This document shows, piece by piece, positions 1 to 23,051 of a stretch of DNA of 64,000 bases. The notes under the pieces are model-generated. The model was not told the origin of the DNA. It searched no databases and was given only the letters and a program-made list of their open reading frames with translations. Position 1 is the first letter of the stretch, and each line of letters begins with the position of its first letter. Origin of the DNA: Caenorhabditis elegans (Eukaryota > Nematoda > Chromadorea > Rhabditida > Rhabditidae); contig NC_003283.11 of the NCBI RefSeq assembly GCF_000002985.6, positions 8,308,001-8,372,000 of the forward strand, given 5' to 3'. The position numbers were made by a program, and so were the translations under genes.

Positions 1-2696
1 CATTTTGTTTCTAGCATTTTGTGCAGGTGAGCTAACAAAAGAGATTCCCGTTTTATATTGGTTTTAAATTTGTTCGCATTTTTTTTAGATTTGGTTTGAG
101 TCAAATAAATAGTCTTGGAATTTCTGTGGAAACAGTTTGCTGTTGAAAAGCTTACCTAGAAACTTCCCGGTAATGGCAATTTTCTGTCATCAACTGGGCA
201 ACTTATTTTATTAGGTTTAAATAAGTTGCTCTGTTTTTGCCAGACAGTTGTTTCTTACGGCCCATAATATTGTAGAATTTCACTTTTTATCACTTAATTG
301 AAATGAATTCAATTTAATTTCAGTTAGATGCGCAGAACCGAATACAGAAAAAGAATGCCAATGTATCTTGAACAATATCTGGTTGGATGTCTATCTTCTA
401 ATAGATAATTCTGCAAAAATGGGATCAGTTGGACTTCTCGAGGTGGCTTCTAATGTGAATTCGGTTTTTGGTTTCACACAAATAAGAGTAGGAAGCAATT
501 ATCCTGATAAAAGAGGTGCCCGTGTCTCAGTTCTTACGTACAGTGATTCTCCAACTGTTCACGCAAATTTAAGCGATTTCAAGTCGACAGATGAGTTGAC
601 AAGTATGATATATGCATTGAAGCCAAGTACTTCTTATGATTCAAATCTTCAATCGTAAGTTAGAATTTTGAACTCGGGAAATTATGTTGAATATTAAGAT
701 CTTTGAAACTCGTGAAAAATATGATGAACTACAAAGATATAAATGCACCAAGAAATAACACACAAACTGTTATTATTATCTACGCCGGAGATTATGTGTA
801 AGTTAAGCACAGAAAACTATTTAAAAATGAATTTTAAATTTTAGGGATTATGATGAACCAACTATTGCACAATTTGGAGATCAATTAAAAGCTGATGGCG
901 TGAAAATAATCACAGTTGCTGATATATCAGTGAGTTTCAGATTAATGACAGGAATGTTGTTAATCACTAAGAAACAAATTTAGCATTATCTCTTTAAAAT
1001 ATAAAAACGTATGTATTTTTTGAACAGTGTCGCGCGGAAAAAAAAACGAAAAACAGGTAGTACCAGAAATTATTTAGTAAAAACGAGAGAAGTATTTATG
1101 GCACCGTAAACCCCTTGGGGTACTCTGACGCATTTCTCTGAATACCAATATTCTAAAAATAGACGGTATAAGATTATGATCATCAATGAACTTTCAGGGA
1201 AAATTATGACCATCTAGGATTGGAAGCTTTTCTCAAAAAATCTAGTAAAATGACCGGGGAATCAATTGATATATTTTGGATTCAAATGAAAATTTATTTT
1301 TTTTTCCAAGTCAGAGAGCCGCTTAAATTTGATTTTCGATACATGAAACTTTTTTGGCCAAAAATAAAAAGGCGTCGTGTTTTGGGAAAAACTTGAAATT
1401 TGTTCAAGTTAACCAATTTTGTTCAATTCGTGTTACAGAACACAGACCATCAACATGTTTCAAAACTGAAATGGCTCAAGGAGTTGGCAAGTGAAGGAAA
1501 TGGATTCAATATCAACGATGATTATGTTTCGGAGGAAGTTCAAAAAGCGTTATGCAGTGGTAAGACGTTATAGATAATTTAATATATTTTCTGCATTGAA
1601 ACAACTCAAAAAGGTCAATATAAGATTAAAACCGCTCTTTTCCCCTTCACGGCAAAGTTAACTTATAGTTAAGTCTATCTCCCTCTACCTTCAATGCGAA
1701 TTACGTGTGGTAGCCCTTTAGATATGGTGAAAAGCGTTTTTTGATGTTTATTTGTAAAATTCCACTTTTGGCAAGAAATCTTCAATTTAAAATTTTTTTA
1801 AATTTTCAGCGAACTGCTTCTGTCCTCGTAAATATCATCATTTTATCACTTCAAACAATGAAACAACTCACAAATATGGAACATGTGTACAGTTTAGTAT
1901 TGAACAATTAAGCTGGACAAAAGCGAAATTCTTCTGTCAGAACTTACACAAACAGGGTTACCTGGCTACCGAGTATACTGATGAGAAGCATTTGTTTAAC
2001 GAGAGTGAGTTTGAGATATTTCTTTTATTTTAGTTTCTCCCTCATCCCAGCGGGAATATTATCATGTTTTCTTCTCTACCATGCTCTTTGAAAACCTAGC
2101 ATCAAGCGTGTGAAAATTTGAAGCAATAATGTGTGGGGTTGTCAAGAGATTTTTTTTTTCTGTCAAAAATTACTGTACTGGATGGTTTATTTGTCCATTT
2201 TTTTCAATACGCCTTTCAACCAGGAAGTTGTAATTTTTTTCCAAAAAAAAACAGACCCAGCAAAAATGATAACTGTCAAAATAGCTTTAATTGTGTTAAA
2301 ATTCATCGAAATAAACATTTTACGTTGGCAAATCAACCTACAACCAATTTGGATTTCAATAATCAGTTCCTAACCTTGAAAAAACCTTGAACAAATAAAC
2401 TTTCAGAATACTTCGAAGCTCTTTCTTCTCAACCAAAGCCATTCAAATACCATATAGGATTACACTATGTAAATGGTGGATACTTCTGGGAACAAGCCAT
2501 TGGTATTCCATTAATTCCCGTTTCAACTCCACTTTACCCACTCGATAATGTACCTTCTACAACTCAACAGTGTGTTAGAAACATAGGAACACTTGACTCT
2601 GAAGATCTCAAATGGGACAATGAAAACTGCTTTAATGATGTTAGTCCTTTGATGTGTGAGGTTCCTGCATGTGATACTGAGAATTATTGCCCATAA
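1..2696 (+). CDS. Secreted vWA plus C-type-lectin-domain protein (clec family), 5' end outside window
   Basis: Spliced model: exons 1-26 (partial), 324-654, 699-797, 845-929, 1439-1559, 1810-2004, 2407-2696. The first fragment reads ILFLAFCAG, the end of a signal peptide, so the start codon is just upstream of the window. Exons 2-5 encode a von Willebrand factor A domain; the segment DVYLLIDNSAKM resembles a MIDAS strand but with DNSAK in place of canonical DxSxS, so metal binding is doubtful. Exons 6-7 encode a C-type-lectin domain (cysteines in CFCPRKYH, WTKAKFFC, CVRNIG, CFNDVSPLMCEVPAC). The stop is TAA at 2694-2696. All junctions keep frame; the acceptor of exon 3 is TTAAG, weaker than the usual TTTTCAG. 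vWA+CTLD is a large nematode-expanded secreted family, many members linked to intestine or pathogen response; a role here is inference. I do not recognise the exact clec number. Confidence 0.85.
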
Positions 2697-3520
2697 GTAG
2701 CCCCTGTTGCATTTATTTGTTAACATTAACCGAATACAAATAAGTTTATAAAAAGTGTATTTTATGTTTTAACATATTGCAAAGTTTGAAATTCCGTATT
2801 CACTGCAATTTGTGATAGTCCCAATGTTGGCAAAAGCGCGGTAATCCCACTGAGGAGAAGGGTATGAGTCTCCAAAAAGAGTTGTTTTTATTTTAAACGG
2901 ATAATTTTTTCTGTGGAATCTTAAGTTGGAACATGATAGAGGTTATATATATCATTCATTCACGTCTTCAAGGCAAAACATATAAGGGGAAAGCATATAC
3001 AAATAATCACAGGGAAGAATTGGTGGATGATAAAATGATCCCATAAACCATTACTAGTTTGAGAGATCAAGTTGGGGGAATGAGAATATTAAGGGGGAAA
3101 GAATTTAACCGGGAAGCAAACATAGAGCGATTTAATTTTTCCGGGATTTGCTTTGCTAGGCGGTTCCAGGTGGCGAGGTTGACTCTGAGGAATCCTTTGT
3201 TTGTTTCGCCAACAGATCTGAGCTGCTGAATTTTTTGTAAAATATATTTTGACGCATGTCTCAAGGTTGTTTATTACTTCTTTATTATCTACTTTTTGAC
3301 AATCTTAAGATTAAAAACTTTATACTTATTAAATATCCATTGATTGATCGACGTTAACTTCAATAGTTCAACTGTTCAAAAATCCTTTTCTGATTGAATA
3401 ATTGGTTTTGCAAAATGACACGAAAACTGATTAACATACAAACAATAGATGAATTTGAACATCTGTTGTCAAAAGAATTCCATAAAAGCCGAGGCATATC
3501 AGTAGGTTTATTGCATAACC
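2697..3520. other. Intergenic, no gene seen
   Basis: About 0.8 kb between the lectin gene and the next secreted-protein gene. It includes a short minus-strand ORF (3067-3264) with no recognisable motif or splice signals. The final part directly upstream of the ATG at 3521 is presumably the promoter of the next gene. Confidence 0.5.
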
Positions 3521-4074: not shown

Positions 4075-5155
4075 GTTTTAAATATTGATAGTTGAAAGTT
4101 TTTAGAGTTTTATTAGACGGAAAGTTTAGCACACAATCTCAATAGTAAAATCTGAAGATGGCAACATATAAGAGATCGGTCTAAAAAATATAACGGATAT
4201 GAACACAGAAAAATGCCATACTCCAATCCCAACAGTGCAAACTCAAAAAATGACTAGTTTCATGAATTGTTACTTTTCTGAATATTTATTGAACGTTCAT
4301 GAAGTTGTAAAAAAATGATTCTTACAACTAGAAAATTAAAAAAAAATAAGGCCTCGAAGGTTTTTCGTGTCTTTTTTGGGCAAACGCTTTTTGTTATTTG
4401 TATTGTTTTTTTATTTAAAAAAAAGTGTGTATTCCATATTCAACGTTTGAAGAAGTGTGAACTTCTACCACTTGGTTGACGTTGCGATAAAAAGTCTACG
4501 AAGGATGTTCTGATTAATAAAAATCATTTTAAATGCTTCGAAGTAGTTTCAGGAAATATCATGGGTTCTGTCGGCGTATTGCTTTGGACTAGAAAAAAAG
4601 GTACAGGTGGAATTGTGAACGATGCTCTGAAAGTTGTGAACAACTTTCGAGAATCATAAAATATGAGATGTTCTCATCCGTATAAGTTTCCTATTTAAAA
4701 CTTGTGAAAATACATACGGACTTATCATGATGTTATATCGGTTTATAATTTTTTATTCATTCTTTACATTATTAACACGCGGAATGCTTGTTATTCGTTC
4801 GAAAACTGGGATTTTAAAAGGTTTTGTTTTTTTTTTGATGATTTTGATAGCATCTACTAGAACAAATAATGCATTATGGTACCCAAATATTTCCAAAAAA
4901 CACAGTCCTCTTGGGAGTTTGTGCTTTCGTATCTACTCGTGAAAATTGTTCCCTATAGACCGAGTTAGGTTCCTTCAGGCGAGCGGTGCCTTCACCCGCC
5001 TCTTGTGTCAATTTATGTATGTTAAAACTTCAACACATGTACACCTTTTTGCTTATTTTTTTAAGTTAGCATTCAAGCAGTTCTAAAAAAAAGAAAAACA
5101 CTAGAAATTAAAAAAAAATTGCAGAACGGCGGTTTATGGCAGGAGAGGCGCCGTG
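4075..5155. other. Intergenic, no gene seen
   Basis: About 1.1 kb of AT-rich sequence before the foldback element. A 71-codon ORF (4727-4942) is hydrophobic but has no signal for a real gene. No repeat structure noticed until the target duplication at 5156. Confidence 0.5.
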
Positions 5156-5164
5156 CCTTATTTC
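5156..5164. repeat. Target-site duplication CCTTATTTC (left copy)
   Basis: Identical 9-mer at 9806-9814 on the other side of the foldback element. Confidence 0.8.
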
Positions 5165-6088
5165 GCCCAACTCTCCCTAGGGGCAACAAAAAAGGGGGCA
5201 ACATTTGAACTCTCCCTGGGGGCAACAAATTAGGGGGCAACATTTTTAATAAGTATATTCAACGGCGAACAAGTTTTTATTTTCCAACCTTTTGATAATT
5301 TAATAAAAAATTCGTCCAAATTTGAAGACAAATTTTAAAATTTCGACAATTAAAACAAATTTTGCAAAGAATTTTTGACCAACCTAATATAATGTGAACT
5401 GAAAAATCTTATCACATCGTGGGAAATTTCTTATTTAGTCAAATGCTCAAATGGTAAATCAATTCAAAGGGTTCAACTATGCTTAGAATTCTTCGAGCCT
5501 GTTACATTCCCAAATCTCTTATTATGGTGCATCTAACCGACTTACTTCTATTTTTTCCAAATACGAATTTTGAATAATTTGCTCATTAAGTTTTCACTGA
5601 CTTAAATAGTCATTAAAGTCTCTTTAAATATTGCTCTACTGATTTGGGATCTCATATGGCTTTCACGTTACGATTTGATTCTTCAGCTTCAAAGTATCAT
5701 ATACAAAAACTTTTCACTTAATAATTTTTCCCTAAGTTTTTTCAAAAGATGTTTAGTTTTGGGAAAAATTATCATTATGATAAGTTCAACAAGATTTGAC
5801 GTTCAAGTTTAATTTTCTGCCAAACAATCATAAGCAATGTGTTTGATTGTGCATGTAGATGACTTATTTCAAAAGATTATATCTTTGTTGACGTTTGAAA
5901 TAACAAATTGTTGTCAACTAAAAAGTTGTTGACAATAGTTGTTAGTTGGTACCTTTTAGTGATCTTTAGTGACTGCGGAGATGTGAGCTACCAAATATGA
6001 TCTAAAATTCTAGATCTGTGCTCAACGATATCTCAGTTCTTGATAAAAGTGAAAAAATGCTTCAACTATGAAAATGTGTATTGTTTTG
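5165..6088 (+). repeat. Left inverted arm of the foldback element
   Basis: Pairs as reverse complement with about 8784-9805. It begins with CTCCCTAGGGGCAAC modules and ends near ATGTGTATTGTTTTG. Differences seen between arms are a few substitutions, small indels, and the extra terminal module in the right arm. Confidence 0.85.
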
Positions 6089-6151
6089 CACGACCTTCTT
6101 AGACATCAAAAAGTAACATGTTATTGAAAATTCTGATTTTTCAGCAAAAAA

Positions 6152-7048
6152 TAGTCAATGATCTGAGGTAGTCAATGAGCAAAGGTAGTCAATGAGCAAA
6201 AGGTAGTCAATGATCTAAGGTAGTCAATGAGCCGAAAAGTAGTCAATGATCTAAGGTAGTCAATGAGCAAAAGGTAGTCAATGATCTAAGGTAGTCAATG
6301 ATCTAAGGTAGTCAATGAGCAAAAGGTAGTCAATGATCTAAGGTAGTCAATGAGCAAAAGGTAGTCAATGAGCAAAGGTAGTCAATGAGCAAAGGTAGTC
6401 AATGATCTAAGGTAGTCAATGAGCAGAAGGTAGTCAATGAGCAAAGGTAGTCAATGAGCAAAAGGTAGTCAATGATCTAAGGTAGTCAATGAGCAAAAGG
6501 TAGTCAATGATCTAAGGTAGTCAATGAGCAGAAGGTAGTCAATGAGCAAAGGTAGTCAATGAGCAAAGGTAGTCAATGAGCAAAGGTAGTCAATGAGCAA
6601 AGGTAGTCAATGATCTAAGGTAGTCAATGATCTAAGGTAGTCAATGAGCAAAAGGTAGACAATGATCTAAGGTAGTCAATGAGCAAAAGGTAGTCAATGA
6701 GCAAAGGTAGTCAATGAGCAAAAGGTAGTCAATGATCTAAGGTAGTCAATGAGCAAAAGGTAGTCAATGAGCAAAGGTAGTCAATGAGCAAAAGGTAGTC
6801 AATGATCTAAGGTAGTCAATGAGCAAAAGGTAGTCAATGATCTAAGGTAGTCAATGAGCAAAAGGTAGTCAATGAGCAAAGGTAGTCAATGAGCAAAAGG
6901 TAGTCAATGATCTAAGGTAGTCAATGAGCAAAAGGTAGTCAATGAGCAAAGGTAGTCAATGAGCAAAGGTAGTCAATGATCTAAGGTAGTCAATGAGCAA
7001 AGGTAGTCAATGAGCAAAGGTAGTCAATGAGCAAAGGTAGTCAATGAT
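6152..7048 (+). repeat. Minisatellite of ~17-bp units AAGGTAGTCAATGAGC / AAGGTAGTCAATGATCT
   Basis: About 50 tandem units around the invariant core GGTAGTCAATGA. Units come in two main forms, one continuing GCAAA(A) and the other TCTAA, in an irregular order. A single unit near 6656 has GTAGACAAT. The array lies inside the foldback element just within its left arm and has no coding potential. Confidence 0.95.
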
Positions 7049-7696
7049 GTTTGCCGGAGCATTGCCATCATAATAAGTTTGGGCGAATCTATCAAAAAGT
7101 TTATGGCTACAAAAATGATAACCAATTATTTCTACACCAGCCGATGACCGCGCCTCCGGCGCGGCCAACGACTGGCGGAGTTTAAAATGTATAACACATA
7201 GATGTCCTTTTAATCATTCAAAAATGTATCATTAAAAAATTTGAAACTTCATCGATTAAATCGCATTTTCTTCTTCCATGGTATTCGATTCAGAAAATTC
7301 AAAGAGACAGTTAGAATGTTCTGATTTTTCTACACTCAAAATTATAAAACTGCGTTGCGTGTACGCCAAAATAGTCCCCGCCTTTTTCTCGTTCACTCAA
7401 GGGGAAAAGGCAAAAAGCGGTACCCCAGGTAATATCAGCCGCCGACATCATTCGAGGTCCGCGCACCACACTATTTTTCTCACTGTTGGCGTGGCGAGCT
7501 GTCCCCCTCCCCCGAAAAAATTCCACAGAGTTACAGTTTTTTCAATAAGTTAATAACTTTCCTTAACTGGAGAAGTCTGAATAATTAACTACTAATAGTA
7601 AGTTCTTTGAATATAGATGTGAGGAAACAAATAAAAACTCCTACAGTTATAGGAGGTTGTAGAGCATTTCAGAACTTTTTTGAATTTTCCAGATGA

Positions 7697-7734
7697 TTCT
7701 AGAACATTCTAGAATTTTCTTGAAACTTCCAGAA
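7697..7734. promoter_or_regulatory. Heat-shock-element array, 8 contiguous perfect pentamers
   Basis: TTC and GAA triplets alternate every 5 bp: TTC at 7697, 7707, 7717, 7727 and GAA at 7702, 7712, 7722, 7732. This is four times nTTCnnGAAn; three pentamers make a functional HSF-binding site in known systems. Weaker pentamers in the same register reach back to 7672. The array lies in the core of the foldback element. Binding by HSF-1 is predicted from the motif, not shown. Confidence 0.75.
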
Positions 7735-7775
7735 GGTGCTGAAACAAAAAATTGATTCCAGAACCAAAATTTGAA

Positions 7776-8326
7776 TTTCCCGCCAAATGTTTTCCTCAGA
7801 AAATTTGAATTTCACGTCAAAATCTTTTTTTCAGAAAATTTGAATTTCCCGCCAAAATTTTTCTTGGAAATTTGAATTACCGCCAAAATTTCTTTTCTCA
7901 TAAATTTTGAAGTTCCCGCCCATATTTTTAAGGGTCCCACCACGATGGGTCTCGCCAGTTCCAGGTGGTACTTAAGCTAACAAAAAGTTTCTCAGAAAAT
8001 TTGAATTTCCCGCCAAAAATGTTTTCTCAGAAATTTTGAGTTTTCGGCCAAAATTTATGGGTCTCACCACGAATATTCCAGATTTTTTTTCGAATTTTCC
8101 AGAAGGTTCTGGAACTTTCCAGAAGGTTCTGGAACTTTCCAGAAAGTTCTGGAACATTCCAGAATTTTCTCGAATTTTCCAGAAAGTTCTAGAACATTAT
8201 AGAATTTTCTGGAATTTTCCAGATGATTCCAAAACCAAAATTGAAATTCCCGCCAAAATCTTTTTCTCAGAAAATTTGAATTTCCCGCCAAAATGTTTTC
8301 ACTGAAAATTTGAATTTCCCGCCAAA
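7776..8326 (+). promoter_or_regulatory. Cluster of E2F/DP-type sites TTTCCCGCCAAA
   Basis: Perfect TTTCCCGCCAAA occurs at 7776-7787, 7845-7856, 8006-8017, 8281-8292 and 8315-8326, with near matches at about 7873, 7908 and 8246. The motif matches the E2F consensus (TTTSSCGC). Sites flank and interleave the two heat-shock-element arrays. They are part of a dispersed repeat beginning GAAAATTTGAATTTCCC. Occupancy by EFL-1/DPL-1 is untested. Confidence 0.55.
8092..8219. promoter_or_regulatory. Heat-shock-element array, 25 of 26 contiguous pentamers match
   Basis: From GAA at 8092 to TTC at 8217, GAA and TTC triplets alternate exactly every 5 bp (for example TTCCAGAAGGTTCTGGAA). The only deviation is TTA at 8197. 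A canonical HSE needs three units. The repetition comes from a degenerate 10-bp repeat, but the spacing never slips over about 130 bp. HSEs carried by Helitron repeats have been reported to recruit HSF-1 in Caenorhabditis; this array is a strong candidate of that type. Confidence 0.8.
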
Positions 8327-8331
8327 AATGT

Positions 8332-8586
8332 GGGTCTCACCGCGAAGGGTCTCACCACGATGGGTCTCACCACGAAGGGTCTCACCACGATGGGTCTCAC
8401 CACGATGGGTCTCACCACGAAGGGTCTCACCACGATGGGTCTCACCGCGAAGGGTCTCACCACGATGGGTCTCACCACGAAGGGTCTCACCACGATGGGT
8501 CTCACCACGATGGGTCTCACCACGAAGGGTCTCACCACGATGGGTCTCACCACGAAGGGTCTCACCACGATGGGTCTCACCACGAA
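8332..8586 (+). repeat. 15-bp minisatellite GGGTCTCACCACGAT / GGGTCTCACCACGAA
   Basis: About 17 tandem units alternating ACGATG and ACGAAG, with two units having CCGCGAAG. Because the unit is a multiple of three, all frames stay open and yield spurious MGLTTKGLTT-type ORFs on both strands. A lone related unit sits at 7931-7950. The array lies inside the foldback element. Confidence 0.95.
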
Positions 8587-8783
8587 GGTGACAGGCCCCG
8601 CCCACAACTCTCACTGACTTTGGGTGTGACGTCACAGACTACAAAGACTACATAGACTACAAACTATGGACAGACGAACCGTATTTTTTATATATAAGTA
8701 ATGATCTTTTCGTAGTTGGTCATTTTATACTATGACAACAGAGATATCGCTCCTACAAAAAAAAACTACAACTTCGTCAAGCT

Positions 8784-9805
8784 CAAAACAATACACATTT
8801 TCATAGTTGAAGCATCTTTTCACTTTTATCAAGAACTGAGATATCGTTGAGCACAGATCTAGAATTTTAGATCATATTTGGTAGCTCACATCTCCGCAGT
8901 CACTAAAGATCACTAAAAGGTACCAACTAACAACTATTGTCAACAACTTTTTAGTTGACAACAATTTGTTATTTCAAACGTCAACAAAGATATAATCTTT
9001 TGAAATAAGTCATCTACATGCACAATCAAACACATTGCTTATGATTGTTTGGCAGAAAATTAAACTTGAACGTCAAATCTTGTTGAACTTATCATAATGA
9101 TAATTTTTCCCAAAACTAAACATCTTTTGAAAAAACTTAGGGAAAAATTATTAAGTGAAAAGTTTTTGTATATGATACTTTGAAGCTGAAGAATCAAATC
9201 GTAACGTGAAAGCCATATGAGATCCCAAATCAGTAGAGCAATATTTAAAGAGACTTTAATGACTATTTAAGTCAGTAAAAAGTAAACTTAATGAGCAAAT
9301 TATTCAAAATTCGTATTTGGAAAAAATAGAAGTAAGTCGGTTAGATGCACCATAATAAGAGATTTGGGAATGTAACAGGCTCGAAGAATTCTAAGCATAG
9401 TTGTACCCTTTGAATTGATTTACCATTTGAGCATATGACTAAATAAGAAATTTCCCACGATGTGATAAGATTTTTCAGTTCACATTATATTAGGTTGGTC
9501 AAAAATTCTTTGCAAAATTTGTTTTAATTGTCGAAATTTTAAAATTTGTCTTCAAATTTGGACGAATTTTTTATTAAATTATCAAAAGGTTGGAAAATAA
9601 AAACTTGTTCGCCGTTGAATATACTTATTAAAAATGTTGCCCCCTAATTTGTTGCCCCCAGGGAGAGTTCAAATGTTGCCCCCTATTATGTTGCCCCCTT
9701 TTTTGCTGCCCCCTACATTTAGGAAAATGTTGCCCCCTAATTTGTTGCCCCCAGGGAGAGTTCAAATGTTGCCCCCTTTTTTGTTGCCCCTAGGGAGAGT
9801 TGGCC
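8784..9805 (-). repeat. Right inverted arm of the foldback element
   Basis: Reverse complement of 5165-6088. The stretch 9634-9800 has one more round of the GTTGCCCCCTA / CAGGGAGAGTTCAAATG modules than the left tip, so the terminus itself is a small tandem array that changes copy number. Confidence 0.85.
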
Positions 9806-9814
9806 CCTTATTTC
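9806..9814. repeat. Target-site duplication CCTTATTTC (right copy)
   Basis: Identical to 5156-5164; together they delimit a 4641-bp insertion. Confidence 0.8.
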
Positions 9815-10457
9815 CATACAAGCTCTTCTTATCGCATAATATTTGTTTGCATTATTTTTTTGAAGAATCAACTATACAGCTGGGTTGGGTAAAAGGGTTG
9901 GGTAAAAACTGCTAACGTGGAATTTGTTGAAATGTGGCCGAGGAGTTCCTGTTTTTGCTGCTTATAAATGTTTTTGGTTTTTTTTTGGGAAAACGTTTTA
10001 TGAAAAGTTCGTTTTATGAAAAGTTGGGTGGTTCGAAAATAATCACTGCCGGTAAAAATTTTTTCGGTAATATTTTTCAGTGTAACTTTAAATAATTTTT
10101 GTGAAATTTTTCATGAAATATTTATATTCTATTTATCTGCCTTGACTTGGATTTGGAGTTTCAGATAGTTGATCATATTTTCTCAAGAACATTAAATGTA
10201 TGTTTTTGTGAATTATGCAAAGTAAAAGAAATGCGAAACTCAAAAATAGCAACAACACAAAACGTGATTGAAAATGGGGGATTTAATGTCACAGTACGAC
10301 GAAGCATCTACAGCAACAATCGATGATTGCAAAAATGCAATAAACACGCGCAATGCTTCTATAAAACAAACCCCTGTTCAAAGAAATTTATTGCAAACTT
10401 CCCTTATAAAAGAATCACTGGAAGACCCGAAGTAGTACCAAAGTATTCAAATTCACA
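9815..10457. other. Intergenic, promoter side of the next gene
   Basis: About 0.64 kb between the foldback element and the C-type-lectin-like gene. No repeat or gene seen. Confidence 0.5.
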
Positions 10458-13400
10458 ATGCAAAGAAAACTATTTATTATAGTTTTCTTGGCTGTATTGA
10501 CTGAGTCCATGATACGTCCAATTTCGTCTCGTAACTATGAAGGGTGTGAGTGTGGTAAGTGTCATAGTCCCCAATGTGGCGCATCTTGCAACATAGGCCA
10601 TTTAGCTGCCTTTAAAATTGAAAACGTAATTGTGATGTTGTTTGATGAACAATACTTAAAAGATTTATGTAAATCGACTAGAGGCAATACACAATGATGA
10701 ACGCAAATACTGTTGGCTCAATAGCAATTTTTGTTTTAGAGACCTCTGTGAAACCATGTGAAGAAGAACCAACACCACCTGGTAATGAGGAGGAAACTAC
10801 CTCAATCCCACCCATAACATCACCATCAACTACCCAATCCACTACAAGCCTTCCATCAACAACATCTCCGTATATTTGCAATGTCCAAGGTTATCAATTC
10901 CGTGTGAAACGAAAAAATGGATTCTGGTGGTGTATGTTTGTAGGTTTGCATTCAAAATTGTTGAAAAAAAAATGTTGAATTAATTTAGTATACATAACTT
11001 CTCATCAGTCATGATCGAGTCACGGCAACTTGATCCAAAACCATTCCTAATTAGTAAACATCAACTAAACAGCTTAAAACCATTGCTAATTAGCCTCTTT
11101 TTGCTAATTAACAATGTTTTTTGTTGCTAATTAGCAGTGGTTTTAAGCTATTTAGTTATGGTTTACTAATTAGGAATGGTTTGGACAAGTTGTCGTGACT
11201 CGCTCTTGACTGAGTTTTCAATCGTACAATGCAAACATTATGTTTTCATATATTCCTTATTATATTCACGGTTTTTTATACTTTATAATGGAAAAATTGT
11301 ATTAAGTACGCTGAAACACACTCAAAAATTTTATAACTATTTTTTAGTTGTTCATTTTTGCTGTTAGACTATTAGAAATGCAAGACTAATAGAGAAGCTT
11401 ATTTCGTTTGTGATTTCACCTTAAAAACTATAACTTCACCAAGATTAATAGAGACTGCTAGACTATTAGAAGCTGCAAGACTAATTTTCGAAGATCCTAT
11501 AACTTTGTGAAACTGACCATTTCTAGTAAAAAACTTGATTTGAAACAAAATAAATCATACAAAATCCAAACTTTTCATTATTTCATCAATTCTTTGAACA
11601 CATTCAAGTTTAATTTAGCCAAAAAATTACAAATTTATTGAAATTTCCACAAAGTATACTGATCTGTCAAAAAAGTAGTGCAAGACTATTAGAGGCTGCA
11701 AGCTTAATTTTCGATTGGCCTCTGGAGGTGCAAGACTAATAGGGGTGCAAGACTAATAAAGGCTGCAAGACTAATAGAGGAAATACGGTAGATGGCCAAA
11801 GTATTTTTGAAAACTCGCGCGAATGAATAATAAATGTATTTTCAGTCACTGAATGGTTTTTAAGGATGTTATTTATCTATTTGTAGGTCAATTTTAAGGC
11901 TTCGGCACATTTCTTTCGGTTTTCAAAAATGTCTGGAAATGTGGGAAACAATGTTTCTAATATAAACAAAGAAAGTTTTTAACTAAAGGAAGCGTAACTG
12001 TTCGATTTGATTTTGAACGTATGGATTGAAAATATTTTCAAAAGAACGAATTTCGTATCGAAACTTTTCACCAATTGTTATGGCGGTTCAAAATTAAAAA
12101 AGGTCTCATTTAAGCTAAACCTCCAATTTTAGCCACGCATCGGTCGGAACTTGTTTTTTTGGAATTATCATCCTTTATTATAAACTTTGGTATCTTCTCT
12201 CAGGCGATTTCGTTGATTCCTATCAATAGGGCAAAAACCCACAGACACTGCTCATTTTTTTCAATATTTTCAAGTGATGTACTTATTGGAAACACATTGA
12301 AAACAAGCCAACGAAAGCATAGGAAATTTGCAAATTTGTTCATTGGGTCTTGACGCTTTCAAGGTTAAACACTTCTGCATATCAACTACCAGCTTAATTT
12401 TGATTCATAAAAGGGTTTTAAACTAATCGCGGGATTAGGGTCCATAAAAAACGCAAAAAAATACGTCAAGTTACTTATTTTCTTTTCAGGCTTCTGTCCC
12501 AGTATATAGACCTGGTGAGATGTCGTTATCATATAGTAACGCTCAATTAGCGTGTGCTTCTGATGATGGTTGGCCTGCAATCATAACAAGTATTGAATCA
12601 GATGAAGAACTTGACGTTATGTACGCCTGTAAGTTAACTGGGCACTATTGAGAAATTCCAACACTTTTATTTTGAAAACAGCTGGTAGCCCCCATTTAGT
12701 TACAATACTATAAAAGAAGATGTTCTAAAAACATACTTTTTCAAACATTCAACCCCATTTTCCTCAAAATCGAATGTTTCTCTGGGTGCCCAAAAGTGTT
12801 TTATCGTTCGTTCTCAGATTGATTTGAGCTCAATAATATTATTAGTAAGCGCTAACTATAGTTTTGAATTTTTTTCAATATGTTCAAATAAAAATATGCC
12901 CAATCTTAATAACGCTGACAGTCAAAGCGGTATTCCCAACCCAAAAACAATATCATATCTGTTTTGAGGTGGCCGCAAGAAAACTCGTTTAAAAAATATA
13001 GGCCTTTCAATAAGTTTTTTCGTTTTTCCCAGATTTTATTGTTTTTTAGATTTTCTTTTGTGGTTCCCGTATTTCCTCTATTAGTCTTACATGCAAGACT
13101 AATTTTCGCTTGGTTCGTAGTGGTGCAAGTCTAACAGAGAAAATACGGTGTATAGAACACCGTTAGCAATGATGAGAGACAAAATTTCTGTCGATTTTGT
13201 TTTATTTTTTCGGCAAAATAAAACACTTATTACGTCTTAAGGTATTATTTATTCATTTGTTGGTACTTTTCCGATTACTGCCCCCCAAAATGTGTTCGAT
13301 ATTTTCATGAATAAAACGTGAACTTTTTCCTGAATTTCAGGCTTAGTATTGTTGTTTTCTAAGCCTAAAAATTGAAATAGTATTGAAATAAACATTCACG

Positions 13401-19611: not shown

Positions 19612-22600
19612 TTAAATGATTGGACGAACTGTGACGCATCCAGAAGCAATTATTTCCTTATTATTATAGCTCCATTTGTTGCCTTCGCAGTTAATTTCAG
19701 GCCAAATTTCAAGTCCAGTTGGTACATTATAGAACGGTAGATCAATACTCTGAAATTAATTTCAAATTTTTCTAAAAATTAGATGTTTCATACCGATCCA
19801 TCAGATAGACCAATGAATAACGTAGCATTTAAATTGGATATTCCTCCTTCGGATGTATAAATACATGTCAAAATTGCCGTACAGGTTCCAATATCGAATG
19901 TACTAACGAAAGAAAAGGCAGTTCTTCTTGGTGAATCATATGACTGAATTATAATATCTCTCTTGTTTTCCCACCATTCAGTTGTGAATGGGTATACAAC
20001 TCGATCGATGTAGGAGAGAGAACAATCACATGGTACTGTGGTAGTAGTAGTCTGGACTGGTGTAGTAGAGCTGCTTGGAGGTTCTGTGCTGGTTGTCTCT
20101 GGAGCCGTGATAGTAGTCGTCTGGACTGGTGTAGTAGAGCTGCTTGGAGGTTCTGTACTGGTTGTCTCTGGAGCAGTGGTAGTAGTAGTCTGGACTGGTG
20201 TAGTAGAACTGCTTGGAGGTTCTGTACTGGTTGTTTCTGGAGCCGTGATAGTAGTAGTCTGGACTGGTGTAGTAGAACTGCTTGGAGGTTCTGTACTGGT
20301 TGTCTCTGGAGCAGTGGTAGTAGTAGTCTGGACTGGTGAAGTAGAACTGCTTGGAGGTTCTGTACTGGTTGTCTCTGGAGCAGTGGTAGTAGTAGTCTGG
20401 ACTGGTGTATTAGAACTGCTTGGAGGTTCTGTACTGGTTGTTTCTGGAGCCGTGATAGTAGTAGTCTGGACTGGTGAAGTAGAACTGCTTGGAGGTTCTG
20501 TACTGGTTGTCTCTGGAGCAGTGGTAGTAGTAGTCTGGACTGGTGTATTAGAACTGCTTGGAGGTTCTGTACTGGTTGTCTCTGGAGCAGTGGTAGTAGT
20601 AGTCTGGACTGGTGTAGTAGAGCTGCTTGGAGGTTCTGTGCTGGTTGTCTCTGGAGCCGTGATAGTAGTCGTCTGGACTGGTGTAGTAGAACTGCTTGGA
20701 GGTTCTGTACTGGTTGTCTCTGGAGCAGTGGTAGTAGTAGTCTGGACTGGTGAAGTAGAACTGCTTGGAGGTTCTGTACTGGTTGTCTCTGGAGCAGTGG
20801 TAGTAGTAGTCTGGACTGGTGTATTAGAACTGCTTGGAGGTTCTGTACTGGTTGTCTCTGGAGCAGTGGTAGTAGTAGTCTGGACTGGTGTAGTAGAACT
20901 GCTTGGAGGTTCTGTACTGGTTGTCTCTGGAGCAGTGGTAGTAGTAGTCTGGACTGGTGTAGTAGAGCTGCTTGGAGGTTCTGTACTGGTTGTCTCTGGA
21001 GCAGTGGTAGTAGTAGTCTGGACTGGTGTAGTAGAACTGCTTGGAGGTTCTGTACTGGTTGTCTCTGGAGCAGTGGTAGTAGTAGTCTGGACTGGTGTAG
21101 TAGAGCTGCTTGGAGGTTCTGTACTGGTTGTCTCTGGAGCCGTAGTAGTAGTCGTCTGGACTGGTGTAGTAGAACTGCTTGGAGGTTCTGTACTGGTTGT
21201 CTCTGGAGCCGTGGTAGTAGTAGTCTGGACTGGTGTAGTAGAACTGCTTGGAGGTTCTGTGCTGGTTGTCTCTGGAGCCGTGGTAGTAGTAGTCTGGACT
21301 GGTGTAGTAGAACTGCTTGGAGATTCTGTACTGGTTGTCTCTGGAGCAGTGGTAGTAGTAGTCTGGACTGGTGTAGTAGAACTGCTTGGAGGTTCTGTAC
21401 TGGTTGTCTCTGGAGCCGTGATAGTAGTAGTCTGGACTGGTGTAGTAGAACTGCTTGGAGGTTCTGTACTGGTTGTCTCTGGAGCCGTGGTAGTAGTAGT
21501 CTGGACTGGTGTAGTAGAACTGCTTGGAGGTTCTGTACTGGTTGTCTCTGGAGCAGTGGTAGTAGTAGTCTGGACTGGTGTAGTAGAACTGCTTGGAGGT
21601 TCTGTGCTGGTTGTCTCTGGAGCCGTGATAGTAGTCGTCTGGACTGGTGTAGTAGAACTGCTTGGAGGTTCTGTACTGGTTGTCTCTGGAGCCGTGGTAG
21701 TAGTAGTCTGGACTGGTGTAGTAGAACTGCTTGGAGGTTCTGTACTGGTTGTCTCTGGAGCCGTGGTAGTAGTATTCTGGACTGGTGTAGTAGAACTGCT
21801 TGGAGGTTCTGTCCTAGTTGTCTCTGGAGCCGTGGTAGTAGTCGTCTGGACTGGTGTAGTAGAGCTGCTTGGAGGTTCTGTACTGGTTGTCTCTGGAGCC
21901 GTAGTAGTAGTCGTCTGGACTGGTGTAGTAGAGCTGCTTGGAGGTTCTGTGCTGGTTGTCTCTGGAGCCGTGATAGTAGTCGTCTGGACTGGTGTAGTAG
22001 AGCTGCTTGGAGGTTCTGTGCTGGTTGTCTCTGGAGCCGTGGTAGTAGTAGTCTGGACTGGTGTAGTAGAACTGCTTGGAGGTTCTGTGCTGGTTGTCTC
22101 TGGAGCCGTGGTAGTAGTAGTCTGGACTGGTGTAGTAGAACTGCTTGGAGATTCTGTACTGGTTGTCTCTGGAGCAGTGGTAGTAGTAGTCTGGACTGGT
22201 GTAGTAGAACTGCTTGGAGGTTCTGTACTGGTTGTCTCTGGAGCCGTGGTAGTAGTAGTCTGGACTGGTGTAGTAGAACTGCTTGGAGGTTCTGTACTGG
22301 TTGTCTCTGGAGCCGTGGTAGTAGTAGTCTGGACTGGTGAAGTAGAACTGCTTGGAGGTTCTGTACTGGTTGTCTCTGGAGCAGTGGTAGTAGTAGTCTG
22401 GACTGGTGTAGTAGAACTGCTTGGAGCTTCTGTACTGGTTGTCTCTGGAGCAGTGGTAGTAGTAGTCTGGACTGGTGAAGTAGAACTGCTTGGAGGTTCT
22501 GTACTGGTTGTCTCTGGAGCAGTGGTAGTAGTAGTCTGGACTGGTGTAGTAGAACTGCTTGGAGCTTCTGTACTGGTTGTCTCTGGAGCAGTGGTAGTAG

Positions 22601-23051
22601 TAGTCTGGACTGGTGTAGTAGAGCTGCTTGGAGGTTCTGTACTGGTTGTCTCTGGAGCCGTGGTAGTAGTCTCCTTTATCGGTGTTGAGGAACTGGTGGG
22701 AGTTGAACTCAAAACAAGTGTGCTTGGAGTTTCCATATCAACGCTTGTCAAAGTACTTGGAAGCATGGTATGTGGCTAAAAGTATATCTTACAATGATAA
22801 AATCACGTCGAAACCAAGGAAAATAATCAGAAAAAATCGGCGATCGCCGGTCGGCAATTTCTTTAAAAGAAACATAACTGTCTGATTAGCTCGGCAATCA
22901 GCGATCTCCAACTCTTTTTGTCCTATCGCCGCTCTCTCCTGGTCGAAATGTTTTCTGTTGAACTTACATGCCCAGGGACTGTCGGTGCGGGACCACATGC
23001 CGCAATTACTTGAAGAAATATATTACCAAGTAATAACAACAAATGGATCAT
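19612..23051 (-). CDS. Mucin-like secreted protein, ~38 Thr/Ser/Pro repeats plus C-terminal cysteine domain
   Basis: Three exons on the minus strand: 22968-23051, 19794-22775, 19612-19749, total about 1067 residues. Exon 1 encodes a signal peptide (MIHLLLLLGNIFLQVIAACG). Exon 2 is almost entirely a 23-residue repeat, TTTAPETTSTEPPSSSTTPV-type, in about 38 copies, expected to be heavily O-glycosylated. The C-terminus has PCDCSLSYIDR, a CTAILTC pair and, in exon 3, CEGNKWSYNNKEIIASGC, the same C-x(4)-W-x(8)-GC pattern as the small secreted protein at 3.5 kb (DUF281-like). All junctions are phase 0. The + strand is open through the array only because the unit is 69 bp. Likely an extracellular or cuticle/gut-surface glycoprotein; that role is inference. 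Confidence 0.82.
20034..22668 (-). repeat. 69-bp coding minisatellite, ~38 units
   Basis: Tandem 69-bp units encode the mucin repeat. Variation is concentrated at few sites: GCAGTGGTAG / GCCGTGGTAG / GCCGTGATAG, TGTAGTAG / TGAAGTAG / TGTATTAG, and GGAGGTTCT / GGAGATTCT / GGAGCTTCT. Blocks of variants recur, which suggests duplication of several units at a time. No frameshift or stop was seen. Confidence 0.95.

Follow-up and report, generated by a model that had tools for sequence, protein, structure and literature searches.

A non-autonomous Helitron carrying a heat-shock-element array sits within the loop of a Caenorhabditis elegans foldback element

We analysed a 64,000-nt stretch of the C. 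elegans genome (contig NC_003283.11, positions 8,308,001 to 8,372,000), referred to here as the window, in which an alternation of GAA and TTC every 5 bp had initially been annotated as a multimeric heat-shock element (HSE). The nearest possible target seen for this array lies about 2.2 kb to its right: an open frame whose ATG is near 10458 and whose first 80 residues gave no Pfam match. Elsewhere in the window, open frames at 302-2700 (plus strand) match PF00092, the von Willebrand A domain, at E 6.2e-12, accompanied by a C-type lectin domain match below cut-off (E 0.0089), and a 995-aa open frame at 19788-22775 (minus strand) consists of Thr/Ser-rich 23-residue repeats (69-bp unit, 38 copies) that are mucin-like by appearance. 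The array itself is embedded in a nest of repeats, of which the outer layers and the HSE runs are as follows.

About 5167 to 9803, no strand: foldback (long inverted-repeat) element, which received the Helitron
6152 to 7047, plus strand: 17-bp minisatellite in the foldback loop, present in the relative L037 too
7136 to 8705, no strand: insertion site, bordered by A (7136) and T (8705) and without a target-site duplication
7137 to 8704, minus strand: non-autonomous Helitron with the HSE array, 1568 bp, both ends common to seven other copies
7697 to 7734, no strand: second HSE run, 8 exact pentamers, absent from the initial annotation
8092 to 8219, no strand: HSE array, 26 pentamer positions of which 25 match, also seen in an alignment of eight copies

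Counting pentamer runs bore out the claim of a multimeric array. From 8092 onwards, GAA and TTC alternate over 21 exact pentamers, over 26 when one mismatch is allowed (ending at 8219 with 25/26 positions matching, the exception being TTA for TTC at 8197-8199) and over 28 if two are tolerated. Among 30 simulated 64-kb sequences (first-order Markov, with the window's dinucleotide transitions), the longest run comprised 3 exact pentamers, or 5 with one mismatch; the length of the array is far above chance expectation. Overlapping HSE triplets numbered 27 within the Helitron (7137-8704) versus 5 in the remaining 62.4 kb of the window. A search of the genome (100.29 Mb, seven contigs) with the array as query returned at least 201 matches among the best 40 of 330 candidates scored, often with more than one match at a locus, and the array of locus L001 on contig C6 is identical to that of the window in all 128 bases. 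Since longer arrays exist, with 37 exact pentamers in a row at L016 and 268 pentamer positions (including 40 mismatches) at L046, the 26 units of the window are unexceptional.

Within the Helitron, the HSE runs are accompanied by further features.

7137 to 7175, minus strand: 3'-terminal hairpin before CTGG, with a 10-bp inner and a 7-bp outer stem
7766 to 7929, plus strand: first block of 34-35-bp repeats with TTTCCCGCC, which we take to be an E2F-like motif
7981 to 8053, plus strand: second block of the E2F-like 34-35-bp repeats
8237 to 8327, plus strand: third block of the E2F-like 34-35-bp repeats
8331 to 8585, plus strand: 15-bp minisatellite TGGGTCTCACCACGA, 17 copies
8586 to 8704, minus strand: 5'-terminal region common to RepHel-coding Helitrons, 92% over 118-119 bases
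8627 to 8634, no strand: TGACGTCA, presumably a CRE-like motif, 70 bp from the 5' end and visible in seven other copies

That the array might belong to a Helitron had been hinted at in the initial annotation, and the hint proved right: termini, hairpin, dispersed copies and empty sites all place the array within such an element. Read on the minus strand, the Helitron starts with 5'-TC at 8704-8703 (as TCATTACTTATATATA) and closes with a strong hairpin followed by 3'-CTGG at 7140-7137, and TC...CTGG ends, in line with the 5'-TC and 3'-CTRR by which Helitrons are recognised, were present in 8/8 copies shown. The hairpin (-17.9 kcal/mol, z -4.4; equalled by 1 of 200 shuffles) lies near the 3' end, as is expected of Helitrons, its inner stem stopping 8 nt short of that end. 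BLAST comparison of 4800-10200 with seven loci of 9 kb that surround the next best matches to the array (L009-L015) yielded a block spanning roughly 7125-8327, with 96.5-98.1% identity over about 1.2 kb; the right end up to about 8705 aligned in fragments, interrupted where repeat length differs. Outside 7137 and 8704, the flanks are unrelated among the seven other copies. The base flanking CCAG is A in all eight copies, and that at the other end is T in seven of them (A in L011). Genome searches with the 3' end and the 5' end each gave at least 40 matches (among the best 40 of 81 and the best 40 of 320 candidates scored, respectively), with 39 of the 3'-end matches being essentially full length.

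A Pfam scan of 8 of the Helitron's 10 ORFs with 70 aa or more (all but two plus-strand repeat ORFs) detected no Rep, helicase or transposase domain. RepHel coding capacity, which is required of autonomous Helitrons only, is hence absent from the 8/10 ORFs scanned, and we therefore regard the element as a non-autonomous copy. Coding content of these ORFs was considered and dismissed, the Pfam matches being to low-complexity repeats only: the GETHR pentapeptide match (E 9e-42, over the cut-off) comes from the 15-bp array, and matches to Extensin_1 and kappa casein fell below their cut-offs. At another locus, L043 (C2:15137000-15141000), a single Helitron 3' end precedes four successive 5' ends, a pattern suggestive of tandem deposition of copies or of a skipped terminus.

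Given its position between the inverted arms, the array could be taken for a constituent of the foldback itself, the reading suggested by the initial annotation; we regard this as practically untenable. When the flanks of the insertion site are joined, they align continuously in 4/4 fetched foldback relatives, all without the array, and the seven copies of the 7137-8704 element sit in unrelated flanks. These empty-site relatives are the closest ones returned by a search; for L037, L038 and L040 the alignment itself was read, for L039 a row of the result table. In L038 and L040, the empty site reads TTATTTCTACA up to the junction and TCTTTTCG beyond it; in L037, a single mismatch adjoins the junction. 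Insertion between A and T without a target-site duplication is what characterises Helitrons. The Helitron was inserted between A and T within the loop of the foldback transposon, and the foldback is its landing site only.

The arms of the foldback element (5167-6088 and 8784-9803) are 99% complementary. Its ends (5169-5245 and 9688-9801) contain GGGGGCAACA-rich direct repeats of 39 bp, and the alignments with L037-L040 extend into the repeat-bearing end. A 9-bp direct repeat, CCTTATTTC, bounds the element at 5156-5164 and 9806-9814; repeats of equal length arose in 2 of 2001 flank shuffles, and the pair is consistent with a 9-bp target-site duplication of the foldback. Target-site duplications of 9 bp are typical of Mutator-like elements. 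A role of the arms as a dsRNA hairpin was considered and set aside, because transcription outward from the array would read the same strand of both arms.

Comparison with RepHel-coding Helitrons revealed a shared 5' end. PF14214 (Helitron_like_N) has 13 matches at seven loci in the genome, six of these loci being on contig C2, and from the full-length chromosome II copies mentioned in PMC6927752 we infer that the six are of the Helitron1_CE type. The 92% match to the 5'-terminal region of our element lies beside 6/6 of them, separated from the Rep match by about 2.8-3.4 kb, and was confirmed in the four that were fetched. HSE runs of 3-5 units occur in 4/4 fetched C2 loci, and the C6 RepHel locus (L036) contains no HSE run of 3. 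By reading, L032 presents, from its 5' end, a CRE, 15-bp repeats (a related array at the corresponding place), E2F-like repeats, and HSE clusters with CREs, the HSE clusters being located upstream of TATATAAG and an ATG. A 3' part in common with RepHel-coding Helitrons was rejected: positions 7137-7660 had no match at E 0.01 in any of five loci (the four C2 loci and the C6 locus). The HSE blocks of the window and the RepHel HSE clusters gave alignments of 50-60 bp with 79-85% identity in both orientations; since any two HSE clusters might align in this manner, descent from the RepHel promoter is not demonstrated by them. Judged from these sequence comparisons, the window element looks like a non-autonomous relative that has kept the 5' control region, lacks the coding part and carries a different 3' part.

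All five TTTCCCGCC motifs and the sole TGACGTCA of the window fall within the Helitron. Counted on either strand over whole loci, TTTCCCGCC occurs 5 times in the window element, 6-43 times in ten loci that hold copies of its family (L009-L015 and L043-L045), and 0-3 times in the seven loci with long HSE arrays (L016-L021 and L046); the E2F-like and the HSE repeats were therefore expanded in different copies. L045, of the same Helitron family, has 30 exact TTTCCCGCC sites and one 8-unit HSE run only. HSF-1 has reportedly been connected with E2F by Li and colleagues in 2016. With regard to transposons in C. elegans, at least 20% of EFL-1 binding sites, and more than 10% of the motifs of ATF-7 and other factors, are reported to lie in transposon-derived DNA (PMC8896005). 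One may imagine that the composite module of HSE array, E2F-like arrays and CRE ties Helitron copying to the HSF-1/E2F programme that operates without stress in dividing germ cells and not to heat alone, the HSE core having been built under selection for that programme and then released, with the long arrays now neutral. We consider this proposal unlikely. In none of seven sets counted did the E2F-like motif display core-specific conservation within its 24-bp repeat, a result that argues against its being under selection.

We also examined how the array evolves. Among the eight close copies, array length varies in whole 20-bp steps (+20 in L010, -20 in L015) in addition to single changes. Comparing the window array with itself at a lag of 20 bp, core positions differed in 2/68 cases versus 20/44 for spacer positions (Fisher P 3.5e-8), and at a lag of 40 bp in 1/56 versus 10/36 (P 2.8e-4), neighbouring comparisons within the array not being independent of one another. 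Because the arrays of the window and of its seven close copies go back to a single ancestor, this contrast between core and spacer counts as one event. Variable columns among the eight copies, taken as a measure of purifying selection on the HSEs after transposition, were few in either class and did not distinguish core from spacer (core 2/78 versus spacer 4/50, P 0.21).

Pooling 16 array regions from 14 sequences gave a similar contrast at lag 20 (core 303/3429 versus spacer 1388/2270), which vanished at lag 40 (227/3199 versus 167/2127, P 0.31). This count excluded regions shorter than about 110 bp, out-of-register positions and stretches with less than 50% local identity; L046 was left out, and the GAA/TTC matches themselves defined the pentamer phase. 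Of the eight long-array regions of L016-L021, six had a core that differed at lag 40 as often as the spacer or more often. The 40-bp lag thus gives no sign of present constraint on the long arrays.

These patterns leave some room for a neutral satellite, that is, a self-complementary minisatellite grown by copying slippage to which HSF-1 binding is incidental. The equality of core and spacer at lag 40 in the pooled set, the 20-bp length steps between copies and the likewise expanded non-HSE repeats of the same element family would fit such an origin. However, the cores of the window array are near invariant at both lags and its spacers are not, HSE clusters recur in 4/4 fetched C2 RepHel loci, and heat induction by HSF-1 has been published for such elements (PMC6765114, PMC6927752). 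We consider a purely neutral origin less likely than not. We read the data as indicating that the HSE cores mattered while the 40-bp unit was being built, and that neutral expansion followed.

With respect to HSF-1, ChIP signal on HSE-bearing C. elegans Helitrons has been reported to be stronger in heat, with neighbouring genes being heat-induced (PMC6927752), and Helitron1_CE RNA is induced by heat in an HSF-1-dependent manner (PMC6765114). Measurements on extended HSEs revealed that up to five HSF-1 DNA-binding domains bind cooperatively (PMC9148306). Because cooperative binding on extended HSEs and HSF-1 binding to Helitrons are both published, several HSF-1 trimers likely occupy the window array.

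The initial suggestion that the array could act as a strong enhancer is not supported. Despite more HSEs, Helitron-HSE genes are described as having lower expression and Pol II coverage and more repressive marks, at similar fold-induction, and HSF-1 occupancy at the Helitron gene col-88 is below that at hsp-70 (PMC6927752). At fbxa-215, binding to the upstream Helitrons takes place mostly in the germline, their deletion affects fertility and heat resistance, and the gene goes down on heat shock, counter to induction (PMC12062965). The same chromatin and occupancy data bear on the idea of an HSF-1 sink, in which HSF-1 would be titrated by the numerous arrays in Helitrons, these arrays also shaping the granules that HSF-1 forms in the nuclei of worms under heat shock. 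As many as 61.4% of genomic HSEs (11,527/18,766) reside in Helitrons (PMC6927752), and dsRNA foci of heat shock overlap with HSF-1 granules (PMC6453478). Against this stand the col-88 occupancy, the more repressive chromatin of Helitron-HSE genes (PMC6927752) and the small share that one 26-unit array has in the total of HSEs, and we rate a sink as very improbable.

We consider it highly probable that the locus comprises a non-autonomous Helitron in a foldback loop, whose HSE block would be what remains, in expanded form, of a heat-inducible promoter region of a transposase, would bind HSF-1 and may weakly affect its neighbours. Given the common 5' end, RepHel would probably mobilise the element in trans, although the 3' part (7137-7660) is unmatched at E 0.01 in the five RepHel loci compared. 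The HSE block corresponds in position to the heat-shock promoter region of RepHel elements, from which it may descend, and would have lengthened via gain or loss of 20-bp units, in keeping with the length steps seen. Upon heat shock, HSF-1 trimers would bind the array, as published for Helitron HSEs in general. The element or a nearby gene, such as the one near 10458, could then respond modestly to heat, with repressive chromatin setting a limit.

The locus offers a clear, dissected example of a transposon spreading ready-made heat-shock switches. Its nesting, growth steps, core/drift contrast and E2F-like repeats render selection for HSF-1 binding, in the germline versus in heat, testable. 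Older literature on heat-shock-like repeats in C. elegans exists. A literature search conducted mostly at the level of listings did not encounter proof of nesting by empty site, 20-bp growth steps, conservation of cores as opposed to drift of the 40-bp unit, or E2F-like repeats beside HSEs.

The array is an ordinary case of a known kind of element, and Helitron HSEs have already been mapped genome-wide. As HSEs inside a Helitron, it corresponds to the Hac-HSEs of PMC6927752, where the HSE-bearing C. elegans Helitrons include Helitron1_CE, HelitronY1_CE, Y1A_CE, Y4_CE and Helitron2_CE. With these it shares Helitron ends, clustered overlapping HSEs and many non-autonomous copies, a likeness of kind. 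Helitron1_CE-type RepHel elements (the six C2 loci) come closest at the 5' end, which is 92% identical, and L032 has the same order of CRE, 15-bp repeats, E2F-like repeats and HSEs; unlike them, the window element has no coding part, another 3' part and a longer uninterrupted HSE array. In its tandem HSF sites, the array also resembles human satellite II/III, which HSF1 binds in stress bodies (PMC6453478), whereas it consists of about 130 bp of sites in dispersed transposon copies rather than of a pericentromeric satellite.
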